A stretch of 32,824 nucleotides of DNA from Candidatus Nomurabacteria bacterium. Its GTDB lineage: Bacteria > Patescibacteriota > Minisyncoccia > Phycocordibacterales > UBA9973. The notes beneath the pieces were generated by a model that worked only from the letters and a program-made list of their open reading frames with translations, was not told where the DNA came from and did not search any database. Positions 3,749-32,824 of the stretch are shown here, one piece after another (the first letter of the stretch is position 1; each line of letters begins with the position of its first letter). Position numbers and translations under genes: made by a program. The DNA lies in contig JAQBRM010000001.1 in assembly GCA_028286485.1 (NCBI GenBank), positions 1 to 32,824 of the forward strand, given 5' to 3'.

Positions 3749-4805
3749 TTCGTTCGATCGGACTGACATCCACCAGTAATGGTTCTATTTCATTGCCTGA
3801 GCCGGTGATGCGCATGACATCCTTGTCCACCTTCTTCAATTCCTTGCCGGCATTGCTGTAATGGTTCACCACGGTGGTCAGCGAGCCACCGATCTTATTG
3901 TGGTATTCCTCATAGGATTTGAGATGCTTGCCGAGCTCTTCCACGCGCTTCACGATATCCTTGGCGCTCTCCTCGATCTGCATGGCGCGCAAGCCTTGCA
4001 AGACGGTTTGCAAATATGCCAGGAAAGAAGTAGGGGAGACAATGATCACTTTCTTTTCAAATGCATACTGCACCAGATCCTGCGTGTTGACCTTGATGCT
4101 GCCGACTTCCGCTACGAGCAAATCATAATAGATGGATTCGTGGGGAATGAACATGAAGGCGAAGTCCAAGGTATTTTCGGCTGGGCGGATGTACTTGGAG
4201 GTTTCGTCGATGCGCTTTTTGATATCCTTGCGGAATTCATTCACGAAGGCTTCGGGATCGGTGCCGTTCTGGTTGGACTCGATGATGCGATTGTAATTTT
4301 CCAATGAGAACTTTGAGTCAATGGGAATGATCTTGTCCTTGACCATGACGACGGCATCGACGATCTCACCATTGGCGAATTTATACTGTGTCTGAAATGT
4401 TTTTGGCGGCAGCACTTTCGACAGGATGGTTTCCAAATAGTACTCGCCGAGGATGGTGCCGCGCTGCTTGGGATTCTTCAAGATGTCCTGCAGGTTGCGT
4501 AGCTGGTCGGCGAAGTTCAAGACCTGCTTGTTGCCTTCATCAAGACGGGTCAGGCATTCGGTGATGTCGCTGATGATGTTGGCGGACTGCGTGGACTGGT
4601 GCATCATGGATTCGCGGATGGACTTCTCGGACTCGCCGAGCTTTTGATCGACAGTTTTCTGCAGCTCGCTGACTTGCTGCATCAGCAGCTGGAAGCCCGT
4701 GCTATTGTCGTCATTTTTTTGCGGTTCAACTTTTTTGTTTTGTGCCAAGACATACGCGATGACACCGCCGACGACCACTCCGATAAGAATAAAGATTATT
4801 TGCAT
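3738..4805 (-). CDS. rmuC: RmuC-family DNA recombination protein
   Basis: N-terminal TM plus coiled coil; GEYYLETILSKVLPPKTFQTQYKF, IPIDSKFSLENY, FMFIPHESIYYDL, SPTSFLAYLQTVLQGL. Confidence 0.9.
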   Translation of the reverse strand: MQIIFILIGVVVGGVIAYVLAQNKKVEPQKNDDNSTGFQLLMQQVSELQKTVDQKLGESEKSIRESMMHQSTQSANIISDITECLTRLDEGNKQVLNFADQLRNLQDILKNPKQRGTILGEYYLETILSKVLPPKTFQTQYKFANGEIVDAVVMVKDKIIPIDSKFSLENYNRIIESNQNGTDPEAFVNEFRKDIKKRIDETSKYIRPAENTLDFAFMFIPHESIYYDLLVAEVGSIKVNTQDLVQYAFEKKVIIVSPTSFLAYLQTVLQGLRAMQIEESAKDIVKRVEELGKHLKSYEEYHNKIGGSLTTVVNHYSNAGKELKKVDKDVMRITGSGNEIEPLLVDVSPIERTTE

Positions 4806-4806
4806 G

Positions 4807-5526
4807 TTATGAGATGTATTTTTCTAATGTGTAAATCCAGTCCCGCTCGTCCTTGTCACTGTGCTTCTTCTGATCGAGCAGCCATGACAGGTAGCCGATA
4901 TCGCTGGCGGCCACTTCGGCAATGGTCTTGCCTTTGTACTTGCCGAAATCAAATGCGCGGATGGCCAATGGCTCGGTGCTGATGACCCGCATTTTTTCAA
5001 GGGCGGCGGCTTCATCGCAATTCCACAAGGCCATGGCTTTGGCCAGCTCGTATTCAAACAATTGCTCCAAGACCAAGACATCGGCGAAGGCTTCGTGCGC
5101 AGCCACTTCGAGCTCGATGTCGAGCGCGTAGCGCAGGTACTGCAGCTTGTGCATGGCGAAGGCTCCCTCGGTATCGAGTTCGCGAATGACCTTGAACGTG
5201 CAGAGCAGATTCTTGATGTGAATGTCGTCATTTTTCAAGATCTGCTCATCAAATGCGGCATTGTGCGCCACGCAAATAGTATCGTCACTTTCAAATAATG
5301 CTTTGAGTGCCGGATATTCGGGTGCGTCCTTGAATGACGGGCGATCAGCCACCATTTTGTTGGAAATGTGATGAATGGCGGAACATTCGAAGGGGATAGG
5401 CACGGGTGGCTTGTACATGGCATTCACTACCGGCTCCGCCACGCCGCGTTCCTTCACCGCCAGCTGACACAGGAAATCCTTTGTGCCATTGCCGGTCGTT
5501 TCCGTATCAAAAAAGATGATTTTCAT
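4807..5526 (-). CDS. DnaQ-like 3'-5' exonuclease (DEDDh)
   Basis: MKIIFFDTETTGNGTKD, HNAAFDEQIL, AAHEAFADVLVLEQL. True start is probably the ATG at 5526, not the ORF-track start at 5964. Confidence 0.85.
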   Translation of the reverse strand: MKIIFFDTETTGNGTKDFLCQLAVKERGVAEPVVNAMYKPPVPIPFECSAIHHISNKMVADRPSFKDAPEYPALKALFESDDTICVAHNAAFDEQILKNDDIHIKNLLCTFKVIRELDTEGAFAMHKLQYLRYALDIELEVAAHEAFADVLVLEQLFEYELAKAMALWNCDEAAALEKMRVISTEPLAIRAFDFGKYKGKTIAEVAASDIGYLSWLLDQKKHSDKDERDWIYTLEKYIS

Positions 5527-28650: not shown

Positions 28651-29109
28651 ATGAGTCATATTAGAATAATCCCTGAATTATACTCTAAATATATTAAGGG
28701 AACTGCAGAAGAAGCAATCGTTCAGAATGTTCAGGTGTTAGTTTGCAACCTTACAGTTGTAGTTATGAAAGGCATTAACAGCGGCTGTAATCGTGTGTAT
28801 ATAAATACGAGAGTATTGAAACATGTTTATGATAAAAGGCCAGCGGAAGAATTTGATTTTTTGATTGAATATGTTCATCAGGTTATTAAATTTCCCAATC
28901 AAGTTTATAAAAATAAAACAGGGAAGAAGGGGAGTTATGTTTTTGTAAAGGAGATTAAAAACAAAAAATATCTCTGTTCAATAGAAGTAAAATCCGTAGA
29001 CGAATCAGTACATTGTGAAATAGTAACTTTCTTCAGAGTGAGGAAGGAGGATTATCTCAATGGTTATGAACTATTATGGGAATGGAAGGACGGCAATCCT
29101 TCATCGTAG
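28651..29109 (+). CDS. Hypothetical protein, possibly BECR-fold (PBECR-like) nuclease
   Basis: RVYINTRVLKHVYDKRPAEEFDFLIEYVHQVIKFPNQVYKNKTGKKGSYVFVKEI...CEIVTFFRVRKEDYLNGYELLWE resembles PBECR/BECR patterns by eye only. Confidence 0.45.
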   Translation: MSHIRIIPELYSKYIKGTAEEAIVQNVQVLVCNLTVVVMKGINSGCNRVYINTRVLKHVYDKRPAEEFDFLIEYVHQVIKFPNQVYKNKTGKKGSYVFVKEIKNKKYLCSIEVKSVDESVHCEIVTFFRVRKEDYLNGYELLWEWKDGNPSS

Positions 29110-29603: not shown

Positions 29604-30464
29604 ATGGAAAAATATATAAATGAATTCATAGAATTCAAAACGGGGGGAAGACTCAAGGCTTCATCCGCTCGTGATTATCTTAATTCCTTGAATAAGTTTA
29701 AGACAATCGTAGGGAAACCCTTAGAGGAAGTGGGTAGAGAAGACATTATAAAGTTTCGGACTATCTTGAATATGGGATACGCTCCAAAAGCGGTAGAACA
29801 TCACTTCAATATACTCCATTGCTTTATCAAATTTTGGAATCCAGAAATAAAATGTATTTCGCATGAGAGAATAGAAGTGCCTTTAGCTCGATCAAATCCG
29901 AGGCTCACAATAACAGAAGCAGAACACAAACAAATGCTTTCTGTTTTGGCGGAAAATGAATACAATGAGTTACAAAAGAGGTTGTGCTTACAGCTCCTCT
30001 GGGATTGTGGATGTAGAGTAGGGGAACTATGCTCAATAAATTTAGATGATATAGATTTTGACAATAGAAAAGTAAAAATCTTTACCGAAAAAACCAAAAA
30101 GGAGCGAGTATTATTTTGGAGTAAAGATACGCATGCAACTTTATGCAAAATGCTACCTATAAGGTGGGAAATTAAAAGAAGTAATGCCCTGCTTATAGGT
30201 TTGTATAATAGTGGCGAGTATTCTGATCGAGTTACCACAAAAACAATTCAAAGGTGGTTTAAGGAGATTAAACGTCGGGCTGGAATAAAAAGACAAATAG
30301 TCCCACATAGCTATAGACATTCCAGAATTCAACGTTGGGTTAGTACTGGAATATCTCTCATTGAGGTCTCGTATCTCTCCGGACATAACAACATTACATC
30401 TTTGGAACATTATATGAGACTTGGAACAGCACAAGTAGAAGCAATCGCTCGAAAAGCAATGTAA
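29604..30464 (+). CDS. Tyrosine recombinase/site-specific integrase
   Basis: N-terminal SAM-like core-binding region; LQLLWDCGCRVGELCSINLDDID (first Arg), PHSYRHSRIQRWVSTGISLIEVSYLSGHNNITSLEHYMRL (HxxR...GH...Y). Confidence 0.93.
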   Translation: MEKYINEFIEFKTGGRLKASSARDYLNSLNKFKTIVGKPLEEVGREDIIKFRTILNMGYAPKAVEHHFNILHCFIKFWNPEIKCISHERIEVPLARSNPRLTITEAEHKQMLSVLAENEYNELQKRLCLQLLWDCGCRVGELCSINLDDIDFDNRKVKIFTEKTKKERVLFWSKDTHATLCKMLPIRWEIKRSNALLIGLYNSGEYSDRVTTKTIQRWFKEIKRRAGIKRQIVPHSYRHSRIQRWVSTGISLIEVSYLSGHNNITSLEHYMRLGTAQVEAIARKAM

Positions 30465-30492: not shown

Positions 30493-30888
30493 ATGCAAAA
30501 CGACTTTGATGTGTGGAATGAACTAAAAAAGAAAATTGAAATTAGTACCGATGAGCCAATAGGATTTCCGCAAGAAGGGGAAGTGTGGATGTGTTCTCTA
30601 GGTAAAAATATTGGTTATGAACAGAATGGTGCTAATGATAATTTCTCTCGACCTGTTTTAGTGGTAAAGAAATTCAATAATCACATGTTCTGGTCTGTGC
30701 CGTTATCTACTAAACAAAAGAGATTTGATTTCTACTTCAACTTCACTGATCCGGATAGTAAAAAAGTATCTGCTATTTTGGCTCAAATGAAACTGGTAAG
30801 TATTAAGAGATTAAAAAGAAAGTTGTACGATCTGCCTAAAGATACTCTGATTGATATTAAGGCTAAATTGCAAAAGTTCCTTAAATAG
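30493..30888 (+). CDS. MazF/PemK-like toxin
   Basis: GEVWMCSLGKNIGYEQNGANDNFSRPVLVVKKFNNHMFWSVPLSTK...AILAQMKLVSIKRLKRKL matches the PemK/MazF layout. Confidence 0.8.
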   Translation: MQNDFDVWNELKKKIEISTDEPIGFPQEGEVWMCSLGKNIGYEQNGANDNFSRPVLVVKKFNNHMFWSVPLSTKQKRFDFYFNFTDPDSKKVSAILAQMKLVSIKRLKRKLYDLPKDTLIDIKAKLQKFLK

Positions 30889-31004: not shown

Positions 31005-32311
31005 TTATCTCTTAGTGTATTTTTTTGTTGGAATAGGTTTTTTTACTTCTCTTTCTATATTCGCAAAATCAATTCCCATAAAGCGGAATAATCTGTCACC
31101 AATTTCTGGCGTTAGCTTGCTAAATGGATGTCTATTTGTAATTTTAGTATATATAGTAATGTAATAACTTCTTAACTCTTTTTCAGCAGAGCTGATAATC
31201 TTAACAAGTGATGCAACTGTCCTGCTGTAATGTGGTTTTTTATAATGGTCAATATAGCCATTCAACCTAGACTCAATACTTTTAGTTTTTTTCAAAAAAT
31301 TAGTTCCTGTTGAATGGACGATTTCTTTTATTTTTTTATCTATCTCATCTTTCTTTTTTTGACTTATATCAACATCGGTATTGTTGAATGTTAAACCAAG
31401 AAAATCAAAAGCTTTTGCACCGTAACCCCGTGCAAGTGTAATTTTTGTTTTTTCTAAGCCACTGGTTTTATGTTTTTCTCCCAATTCGTATATATCTACC
31501 TCCATACTTTTAAGTTTTTTCTTCACCAATTCATACATTTTTTTAGCAGTTGGATCATCTTTACAAAGGACAATAAAATCATCTACATACCTCACGAGTT
31601 TTACATCAGGCATACCACAGATATACATATCAAATTCATACAAATATATACTCGCAAGTATCGGAGACAAAGAGGATCCTTGAGCCACCCCTTTAGTAGG
31701 CGGATAATCTTTTGCACCAGTCTCCGAAGATGGCTCGACTGTAAAGTATATGATTTGTCTTATTAGTTCTATAACGTTTTCGTTTTTAATATGTCTCTTA
31801 ATTAAATTGAATATCTTTTCCTTTGGAACATTATCAAAAAATTTCTTTATATCTGCTTCAAAAACCCAGACGTATCCTTGATTTAAATATGTCTGTATTT
31901 TTTCAACAGCTAACGGCGTGCCTTCAAATTCTGGTTCATCGGATTCTTCTTCATTTTCTACTATGTATAATCCCTTTCGAGAAAAATCGTGATTGGAGTT
32001 CAAATGCTCTAAACGAGGAAACACGGATTTAAGTATTGAAATTGCTAAAATCCTTTCATCTATCCTGTACACAAGTATTTCTCTTCCTTTTTCCACCATA
32101 ACCCTTCTCAAGGGGGAGAATTTAAATGTACCTTGAACTAATTTATTTTTTAATTCCAAAAGCTTTGCAGTGTAATCCTTAGAAAAGGTATTTATCGTTT
32201 CATCATTACTGCCTCGTGTATTTTTTCTGGGATGTTTCCTTAGTTGTTCCCACGCAAAAGGTAAACCCTCAATGACTTCTTTAAAATCTTTTTTGTATTT
32301 TTTCTTCGGCA
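31005..32311 (-). CDS. Group-II-intron-like reverse transcriptase (no HNH seen); alternative TTG start at 32333
   Basis: VFEADIKKFFDNVPKE, GVAQGSSLSPILASIYLYEFD, VRYVDDFIVL, KITLARGYGAKAFDFLGLTF, SIESRLNGYIDHYKK. Confidence 0.92.
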
Positions 32312-32331
32312 TAAATAGATGGTATATACGC

Positions 32332-32355
32332 AATAAAGGCCGAGAGGCCTTTATT
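32332..32355 (-). promoter_or_regulatory. Hairpin in RT 5' leader (attenuator/terminator-like)
   Basis: AATAAAGGCC tctc GGCCTTTATT on the minus strand, perfect 10-bp stem, 20 nt upstream of RT ATG. Confidence 0.7.
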
Positions 32356-32403
32356 CATTACTTCTATTTAAACACGAGATGATTCACATGCGATGCATTG
32401 AAT

Positions 32404-32521
32404 GTTCAGAAAGGAGAGTGCTACAAGTTGTAACGTTGTCTGCTTCCATCTTCTCTCGTCTTGTCGTCGTACGCTCTGCTAAATCTGCGATGAGCAGTGT
32501 CAGCGTGGCGAACGATTGAAG
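32404..32521. repeat. 118-bp direct repeat, copy 1
   Basis: GTTCAGAAAGGAGAGTGCTACAAG...GCGAACGATTGAAG identical to 32707-32824. Confidence 0.97.
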
Positions 32522-32534
32522 ATAAGCTTTTGTC

Positions 32535-32562
32535 ATTATAACAAATTTTGTGGTCATGTCAA
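32535..32562 (-). promoter_or_regulatory. Consensus sigma70-type promoter reading toward repeat copy 1 and the RT
   Basis: Minus strand TTGACA-N16-TATAAT (-35 at 32562-32557, -10 at 32540-32535). Confidence 0.75.
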
Positions 32563-32706
32563 TCAGGATTATGATTAATGTGCCGAAAACTTGACAAAAG
32601 TTGCTTTCCGTGGCGAAACTCGCTGGCAAACTTACAATAAAGGCAATAGCTCTTAGAAGTATTTGGTTCGTGTAGAGCTGTAAGTTTGTGCTTGTCGCTG
32701 GTCGAG

Positions 32707-32824
32707 GTTCAGAAAGGAGAGTGCTACAAGTTGTAACGTTGTCTGCTTCCATCTTCTCTCGTCTTGTCGTCGTACGCTCTGCTAAATCTGCGATGAGCAG
32801 TGTCAGCGTGGCGAACGATTGAAG
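32707..32824. repeat. 118-bp direct repeat, copy 2, ending exactly at window end
   Basis: Identical to 32404-32521, offset 303 bp. Confidence 0.97.

Follow-up and report, generated by a model that had tools for sequence, protein, structure and literature searches.

A pair of long, near-identical direct repeats upstream of a reverse transcriptase (RT) gene, recurring across a clade of such enzymes, is the most informative feature of the locus at the right end of the DNA analysed here (the window; 32,824 nucleotides, contig JAQBRM010000001.1 of Candidatus Nomurabacteria bacterium). The repeats, R1 and R2, enclose a spacer, B, and are followed by a segment C that leads to the RT gene. The copies lie a multiple of three nucleotides apart, five lineages carry a stop-free frame through the repeat unit, a promoter sits at the end of B and the leader is conserved. 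We propose, with a probability of roughly one half, that an R-B-R RNA serves, through strand transfer from R1 to R2, as the template for concatemeric cDNA in which the promoter of B would lie upstream of a stopless hydrophobic open reading frame (ORF). The broader claim falls somewhat short of this level: judged from sequence, the locus may represent an undescribed RT system in which long direct repeats act like miniature LTRs, generating tandem-repeat DNA and an endless gene, and thus a second origin, outside DRT2, of the Neo strategy.

Architecture of the locus and recurrence of the repeat pair

The window corresponds to contig C13 in a 560-kb assembly of 32 contigs, and the elements of the locus are ordered R1-B-R2-C-RT on its minus strand, toward the RT. 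R1 (118 nt, 32707..32824), truncated by the contig end, is identical to R2 (118 nt, 32404..32521), which forms the 5' part of the leader RNA, the R-to-R distance being 303 nt. Between them lies B (185 nt, 32522..32706), and C (91 nt, 32313..32403) runs from R2 to the RT start, with blocks complementary to sequence at the start of B. At its 3' end, B contains a sigma-70 promoter directed toward R2 and the RT (TTGACA-N16-TATAAT, 32535..32562), which matches the consensus at 12/12 positions and is the best among 16 promoter-like sites in the region, where a loose pattern expects 12.8. C contains a perfect, terminator-like hairpin (AATAAAGGCC-TCTC-GGCCTTTATT, 10 bp, 4-nt loop, 32332..32355), and B a stem-loop of 10 + 5 bp (32627..32688) with ACACGA and TACTTCTA, complementary to C, in its loop. 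Promoter and hairpin had both been described in the first-pass annotation and are indeed present, and its order of promoter, conserved RNA, hairpin and RT without an intron is supported. The leader of about 190 nt with a 118-nt repeat had to be revised: the repeat is real, but the leader measures ~215 nt from its likely start to the ATG and contains one copy only, R2. The second copy, R1, lies 303 nt upstream of R2, outside the leader, and had been missed.

A k-mer end artefact is an unlikely source of the repeat. Two other contigs of the assembly share its one exact terminal overlap, which at 127 nt exceeds the 118 nt of the repeat and fits an assembler word of 127, so that a simple word-overlap artefact is unlikely, and the R1-B-R2-C-RT layout also occurs on plasmids recorded as complete and circular. 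A scaffold gap or contig end is found within or just upstream of the repeat region in L021 (4755-4854), in L124 (1-250) and in the window (32824); given these three members, short-read assemblies may break at the repeats, which would hide the clade.

The same architecture recurs in Pedobacter, in another Bacteroidota genome, in three Acinetobacter lineages (plasmid records) and in a viral contig, although these relatives share just 20-30% protein identity with the window RT. Loci of the clade thus come from Patescibacteria and Bacteroidota, from plasmid records of Acinetobacter and from a viral contig. R and the R-to-R distance measure 118 and 303 nt in the window, 107 and 318 nt in the Pedobacter locus L007, 88 and 381 nt in L093 (Bacteroidota), 122 and 399 nt in A. 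pittii (L100) and A. seifertii (L103), 123 and 378 nt in an A. baumannii-labelled locus (L105), 129 and 387 nt in A. soli (L106) and 141 and 381 nt in the viral locus L161. In L021, where R measures 111 nt, a scaffold gap interrupts the second copy, and the distance as assembled, 341 nt, is not a multiple of three. Within each locus R1 and R2 are 98-100% identical over their 88-141 nt. Between lineages, R is mostly unalignable by eye, the exceptions being two pairs, the window and L006 (81%) and L100 and its near-copy L103; the alignment of L105 to L106 is poor. The R1/R2 mismatches (three in L100, two in L161, one in L248) are not adenine-specific. Those in L100 (2417-2538 versus 2816-2937) and L161 (2389-2529 versus 2770-2910) are clustered at one spot, and in both loci they abolish an ATG that R1 possesses.

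We scanned 270 fetched loci, mostly RTs, for repeats of at least 60 nt lying 250-460 nt apart. Apart from a simple tandem array in a gene of L104, the 16 positive loci are clade members or duplicate fetches, and about 250 other RT loci are without a repeat pair. L107 carries the L105 repeat next to a broken RT, and a decayed member on a viral contig (L248, 1848-2441) combines an RT full of frameshifts with a repeat pair of 142 nt spaced 452 nt apart. No repeat pair is visible in the clade members L006, L102 and L104, and the upstream region of L124 is cut off. Viral scans with single proteins of L007, L105 and L100 yielded nothing new, and in searches of Patescibacteria L006 (genome G303) was the only match.

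Counting loci with a measured distance and no RT decay, and taking L100 and L103 as one lineage, the R-to-R distance is divisible by three in 7/7 lineages, for which the chance is (1/3)^7 = 5e-4. In L248 the spacing of 452 nt is off triplet and places R1 and R2 in different frames, as expected for a decayed member with a broken RT. R plus B of the window comprises 303 nt, or 101 codons, and is read through by one sense frame without stops; this R1-B-R2 frame (32384..32824, minus strand, 146 codons shown) ends 17 nt past R2. One sense frame is likewise stop-free through R+B in L100, L105, L106 and L161, bringing the number of lineages to five, with dinucleotide-shuffle P values of 0.015 (window), 0.005 (L100), 0.0003 (L105), 0.0003 (L106) and 0.44 (L161). 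The frame starts 0-42 nt before R1 (this side is cut off in the window), ends 12-64 nt after R2 and contains hydrophobic 19-aa windows (KD 1.8-2.7), the window having two hydrophobic segments in B. As a universal rule the endless sense frame fails, since the unit contains one stop in L007 and four in L093. The only stop-free frame through the L007 unit (4427-4849, minus strand) is antisense to the RT, like the neo of DRT2. Comparison of B between L105 and L106 gave a dN/dS of 0.61, against 0.52-0.78 in the other frames, and hence no clear amino-acid-level selection. TATAAT promoters are located at the end of B in the window, L105 and L106. In L105 and L106 start codons with Shine-Dalgarno-like motifs lie inside B, upstream of this promoter; as the chromosomal promoter is downstream of these starts, it would be upstream of them only in a concatemer.

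Close to its start, B has two short blocks, each complementary to a block of C, in crossing order. In the window the B blocks are located in and beside the loop of the B stem-loop, and the 5' arm of the C hairpin is also complementary to GCCTTTATT in B. The complementarity reached P values of 0.001 in the window, 0.0005 in L007 and 0.03-0.04 in L093, L105, L106 and L021, all of them optimistic because the pattern was first spotted by eye in several of the loci tested and the tests were designed after several loci had been viewed; in L100 and L161 it is not significant.

The closest homolog of the window RT is L006 from Zambryskibacteria (84% amino acid identity), which has different gene surroundings. 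Its leader is homologous to that of the window, starting just past the TATAAT box and continuing to the RT, so that a conserved upstream element, the lack of which in homologs would have spoken against the first-pass reading, is present. Synonymous sites are saturated between the two RTs (dS 4.9, dN 0.10), whereas R differs with a dS of 0.28 (81% identity) and ~80 nt of C between R2 and the RT are nearly identical, indicating strong nucleotide-level constraint on the leader. We rejected a conventional conserved peptide as the reason for leader conservation, the changes in R between the window and L006 being mostly non-synonymous (dN/dS 0.69). L006 lacks B and carries R only once, no second R being found elsewhere in its genome. 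Folding of R is moderately better than that of shuffles at most (z -0.2 to -2.8).

Class of the reverse transcriptase and its genomic setting

ORF, profile, tree and fold evidence identify the gene at 31005..32312 (minus strand, ATG at 32312, stop at 31005) as an intact group II-like RT of 435 aa with a YVDD active site. It matches Pfam RVT_1 (E=6e-22) and contains the group-II-like motifs QGSSLSP, YVDDF and FLGLTF, all noted in the first-pass annotation, which had also seen neither an HNH domain nor an intron domain V. Both absences were borne out, as the Pfam search revealed no HNH domain and Rfam no group II intron match in the window region, even at E<=5; L006 likewise gave no Rfam group II intron match at this threshold. 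With NCBIfam TIGR04416, the equivalog for group II RT/maturases, the window RT scores 165 bits, below the cutoff of 300.

In a tree of 48 rows, including DGR RTs, true DRT2 and group II intron RTs, the repeat-bearing RTs and L006 make up one side of a branch (96/89), with L102, L104 and L124 placed inside this clade. The clade adjoins the group II intron RTs (97/89), whereas DGR RTs and true DRT2 branch elsewhere. An RT nested within group II intron ORFs, which would have contradicted the initial reading, was thus not found: the clade is a sister group, and no ribozyme was detected. The window RT is therefore group II-like in the broad sense, lying near group II RTs with no intron RNA found. 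An AlphaFold model of modest confidence (pLDDT 68) finds its best fold matches in G2L4 RT (9d4s, E=1e-17), then GsI-IIC RT.

Several class assignments were compared. The active site is YVDD in the window RT and YADD in other clade members; G2L4 has YIDD, which argues against G2L4 membership. The YVDD motif expected of UG10 (formerly G2L3) is present, and the 25 best PADLOC matches listed include no UG10 profile. Membership in DRT2 (UG2) is contradicted by the separate clade in the tree and by profile scores far below those of true members, 57 bits with the PADLOC Drt2 profile, on which true members reach 408-461 bits, and 63 bits with that of NCBIfam (cutoff 390). The UG17 (DRT10) profile gives 137 bits for the window RT, but this match is unspecific because a group II RT scores as high (142 bits), and the contig neighbours are an integrase and PemK, no SLATT gene being identified. 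With the profile of one retron type, St85, the RT reaches 64 bits against a cutoff of 235. A DGR identity does not fit, as DGR RTs form a separate clade and the window repeats are identical, without an adenine pattern. The likeness to retron and DRT loci seen in the first-pass annotation thus finds no support as membership: the RT fails those retron, DGR and DRT profiles compared and groups beside group II intron RTs.

Pfam matches confirm the adjacent tyrosine recombinase (29604-30464, plus strand) and PemK/MazF-like gene (30493-30888, plus strand), which had been read as consistent with a mobile or defence setting. Both genes are real, but they look incidental to the RT because they are convergent with it and are not seen beside other members. 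An ORF further away (28651-29109, plus strand) matches PBECR3, a phage Barnase-EndoU-ColicinE5/D-RelE-like nuclease family. Neighbours of the relatives include an AbiEi-like protein (L100), DNA methylases (L161), type ISP restriction (L104) and DarT/NADAR (L106). Such genes suggest defence or mobile settings, patchily and with no consistent partners. The genome of the window also has a DGR of its own (L001, G000:C23), with a DGR-type RT match at 1501-2112 and, upstream of it, a pair of similar ~110-nt segments, one template-like (~770-890) and one variable-like (~310-430); one of the two is at the 3' end of an ORF.

A possible concatemer mechanism and its alternatives

We envisage a retroelement in two parts: a template RNA that carries long direct repeats at its ends (R1-B-R2, followed by C), and the downstream gene for the RT. 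Transcription would begin upstream of R1; the Bacteroidetes-type promoters that precede R1 in L007 and L021 are in keeping with this. The RT would copy R2, then B, up to R1. As the two repeats are identical, the extending cDNA could re-anneal to R2 or jump there, and repeated copying would result in (R-B)n DNA, with B-C pairing keeping the R2/C and R1/B junctions close for the jump. Following a presumed second-strand synthesis of the concatemer, the B-end promoter would be positioned upstream of start codons in R or at the start of B, and translation of the frame without a stop would give a repetitive hydrophobic polypeptide that probably harms or arrests the cell. The most plausible role of such an element would be phage defence.

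Much of the stop-free stretch could be accounted for by an ordinary B-R2 ORF, and a concatemer is specifically needed just for the R1-R2 triplet register and the R1-B opening. Of the alternatives, an ordinary operon is the least improbable, though still unlikely. In it, the chromosomal copy of B-R2, or of R1-B in Bacteroidota, would code for a small hydrophobic protein, the second R would be regulatory or left over from a duplication, and the RT would make separate use of the RNA. This reading agrees with the Shine-Dalgarno-like motif and ATG in B followed by an ORF through R2 in L105, L106, L100 and L161, and with the R1-B ORF of L007, where a Bacteroidetes-type promoter precedes R1. However, it leaves unexplained why R1 and R2 are 98-100% identical in every lineage, silent sites included, and why 7/7 spacings are triplets, and the B-end promoter of L105 and L106 is downstream of the start. 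A far more doubtful possibility is that R1 x R2 recombination excises a circular R-B DNA carrying the promoter and the endless frame, with the RT acting elsewhere. Long perfect direct repeats do recombine and L006, with one R and no B, resembles an excised product, yet no role would be left for the conserved RT, the C segment and the B-C complementarity.

Two further alternatives let the RT copy the leader in another way, and we consider both improbable, the second by a shade more than the first. In DGR-like copying from template to target, R2 would be the template and R1 the target, cDNA homing maintaining their identity. The succession of repeat, hairpin, repeat, spacer and RT does recall that of variable repeat, hairpin, template repeat and RT, and homogenisation would account for copies that agree within a locus and diverge between lineages. 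Against this reading, the RT is unlike those of DGRs (DGR RTs, including that of this very genome, form a separate clade), the few R1/R2 differences in L100, L161 and L248 are not adenine-specific, and R1 was not observed at a target gene's 3' end. Alternatively, the leader RNA might template a short or low-complexity cDNA, as in retrons or DRT9/DRT10, with the repeats serving recombination or copy number only. A structured RNA immediately upstream of the RT is in line with this, as are the single-R members L006 and L104, which retain promoter, leader and RT; against it, the RT falls short on the retron St85 profile and on those of DRTs, and the repeats are in triplet register and more than ten times longer than the A-B-A' of DRT10 (PMC12632851).

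Implications and comparison with known systems

No family in Rfam, PADLOC, NCBIfam or PHROGs names this system, and the open papers that we searched nowhere describe such RTs as preceded by long direct repeats. If the concatemer reading is true, gene-making by reverse transcription of a repeated template arose at least twice, the second time in RTs near group II introns, and is not an oddity of DRT2. It would leave a simple mark in genomes that can be searched for directly: an RT preceded by perfect direct repeats whose spacing is divisible by three. Should the endless-gene step prove wrong, the recurrence of the repeat pair still sets apart an RT family for whose leader RNA we found no name in Rfam, PADLOC, NCBIfam or the open papers searched.

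In DRT2 a template is copied repeatedly into concatemeric cDNA (PMC12039810; PMC11100668), the units being divisible by three, the frame stop-free across the junctions and the promoter reconstituted (PMC12039810). The clade described here resembles DRT2 in that an RNA precedes the RT, the concatenated unit is divisible by three and stop-free across its junctions (in the window 303 nt, in the sense frame), the promoter would come to lie upstream of the start only through concatenation, and the predicted product is hydrophobic. It differs in its direct repeats of 88-141 nt, DRT2 using short ACA motifs, in a frame that is mostly sense, the neo frame of DRT2 being antisense to the RNA, and in a unit of 303-399 nt compared with about 120 nt. 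Moreover, its RT clade adjoins group II introns, and the window RT scores 57 bits on a PADLOC Drt2 profile on which true members exceed 400. Group II intron RTs and G2L4 provide the closest fold and the closest clade in the tree, but no intron RNA was found, the window RT is below the TIGR04416 cutoff and the clade is separate from the group II rows. DRT10 (UG17) shares an upstream leader RNA and a template with repeated ends for realignment, whereas in the window no SLATT gene was identified beside the RT on the contig and the repeats exceed those of DRT10 in length more than tenfold. Finally, as in the R regions of LTR retroelements, direct repeats are located at both template ends, where they would serve strand transfer; in contrast to these elements, there is no LTR gene set, and the repeats lie within a short leader upstream of the RT instead of flanking it.
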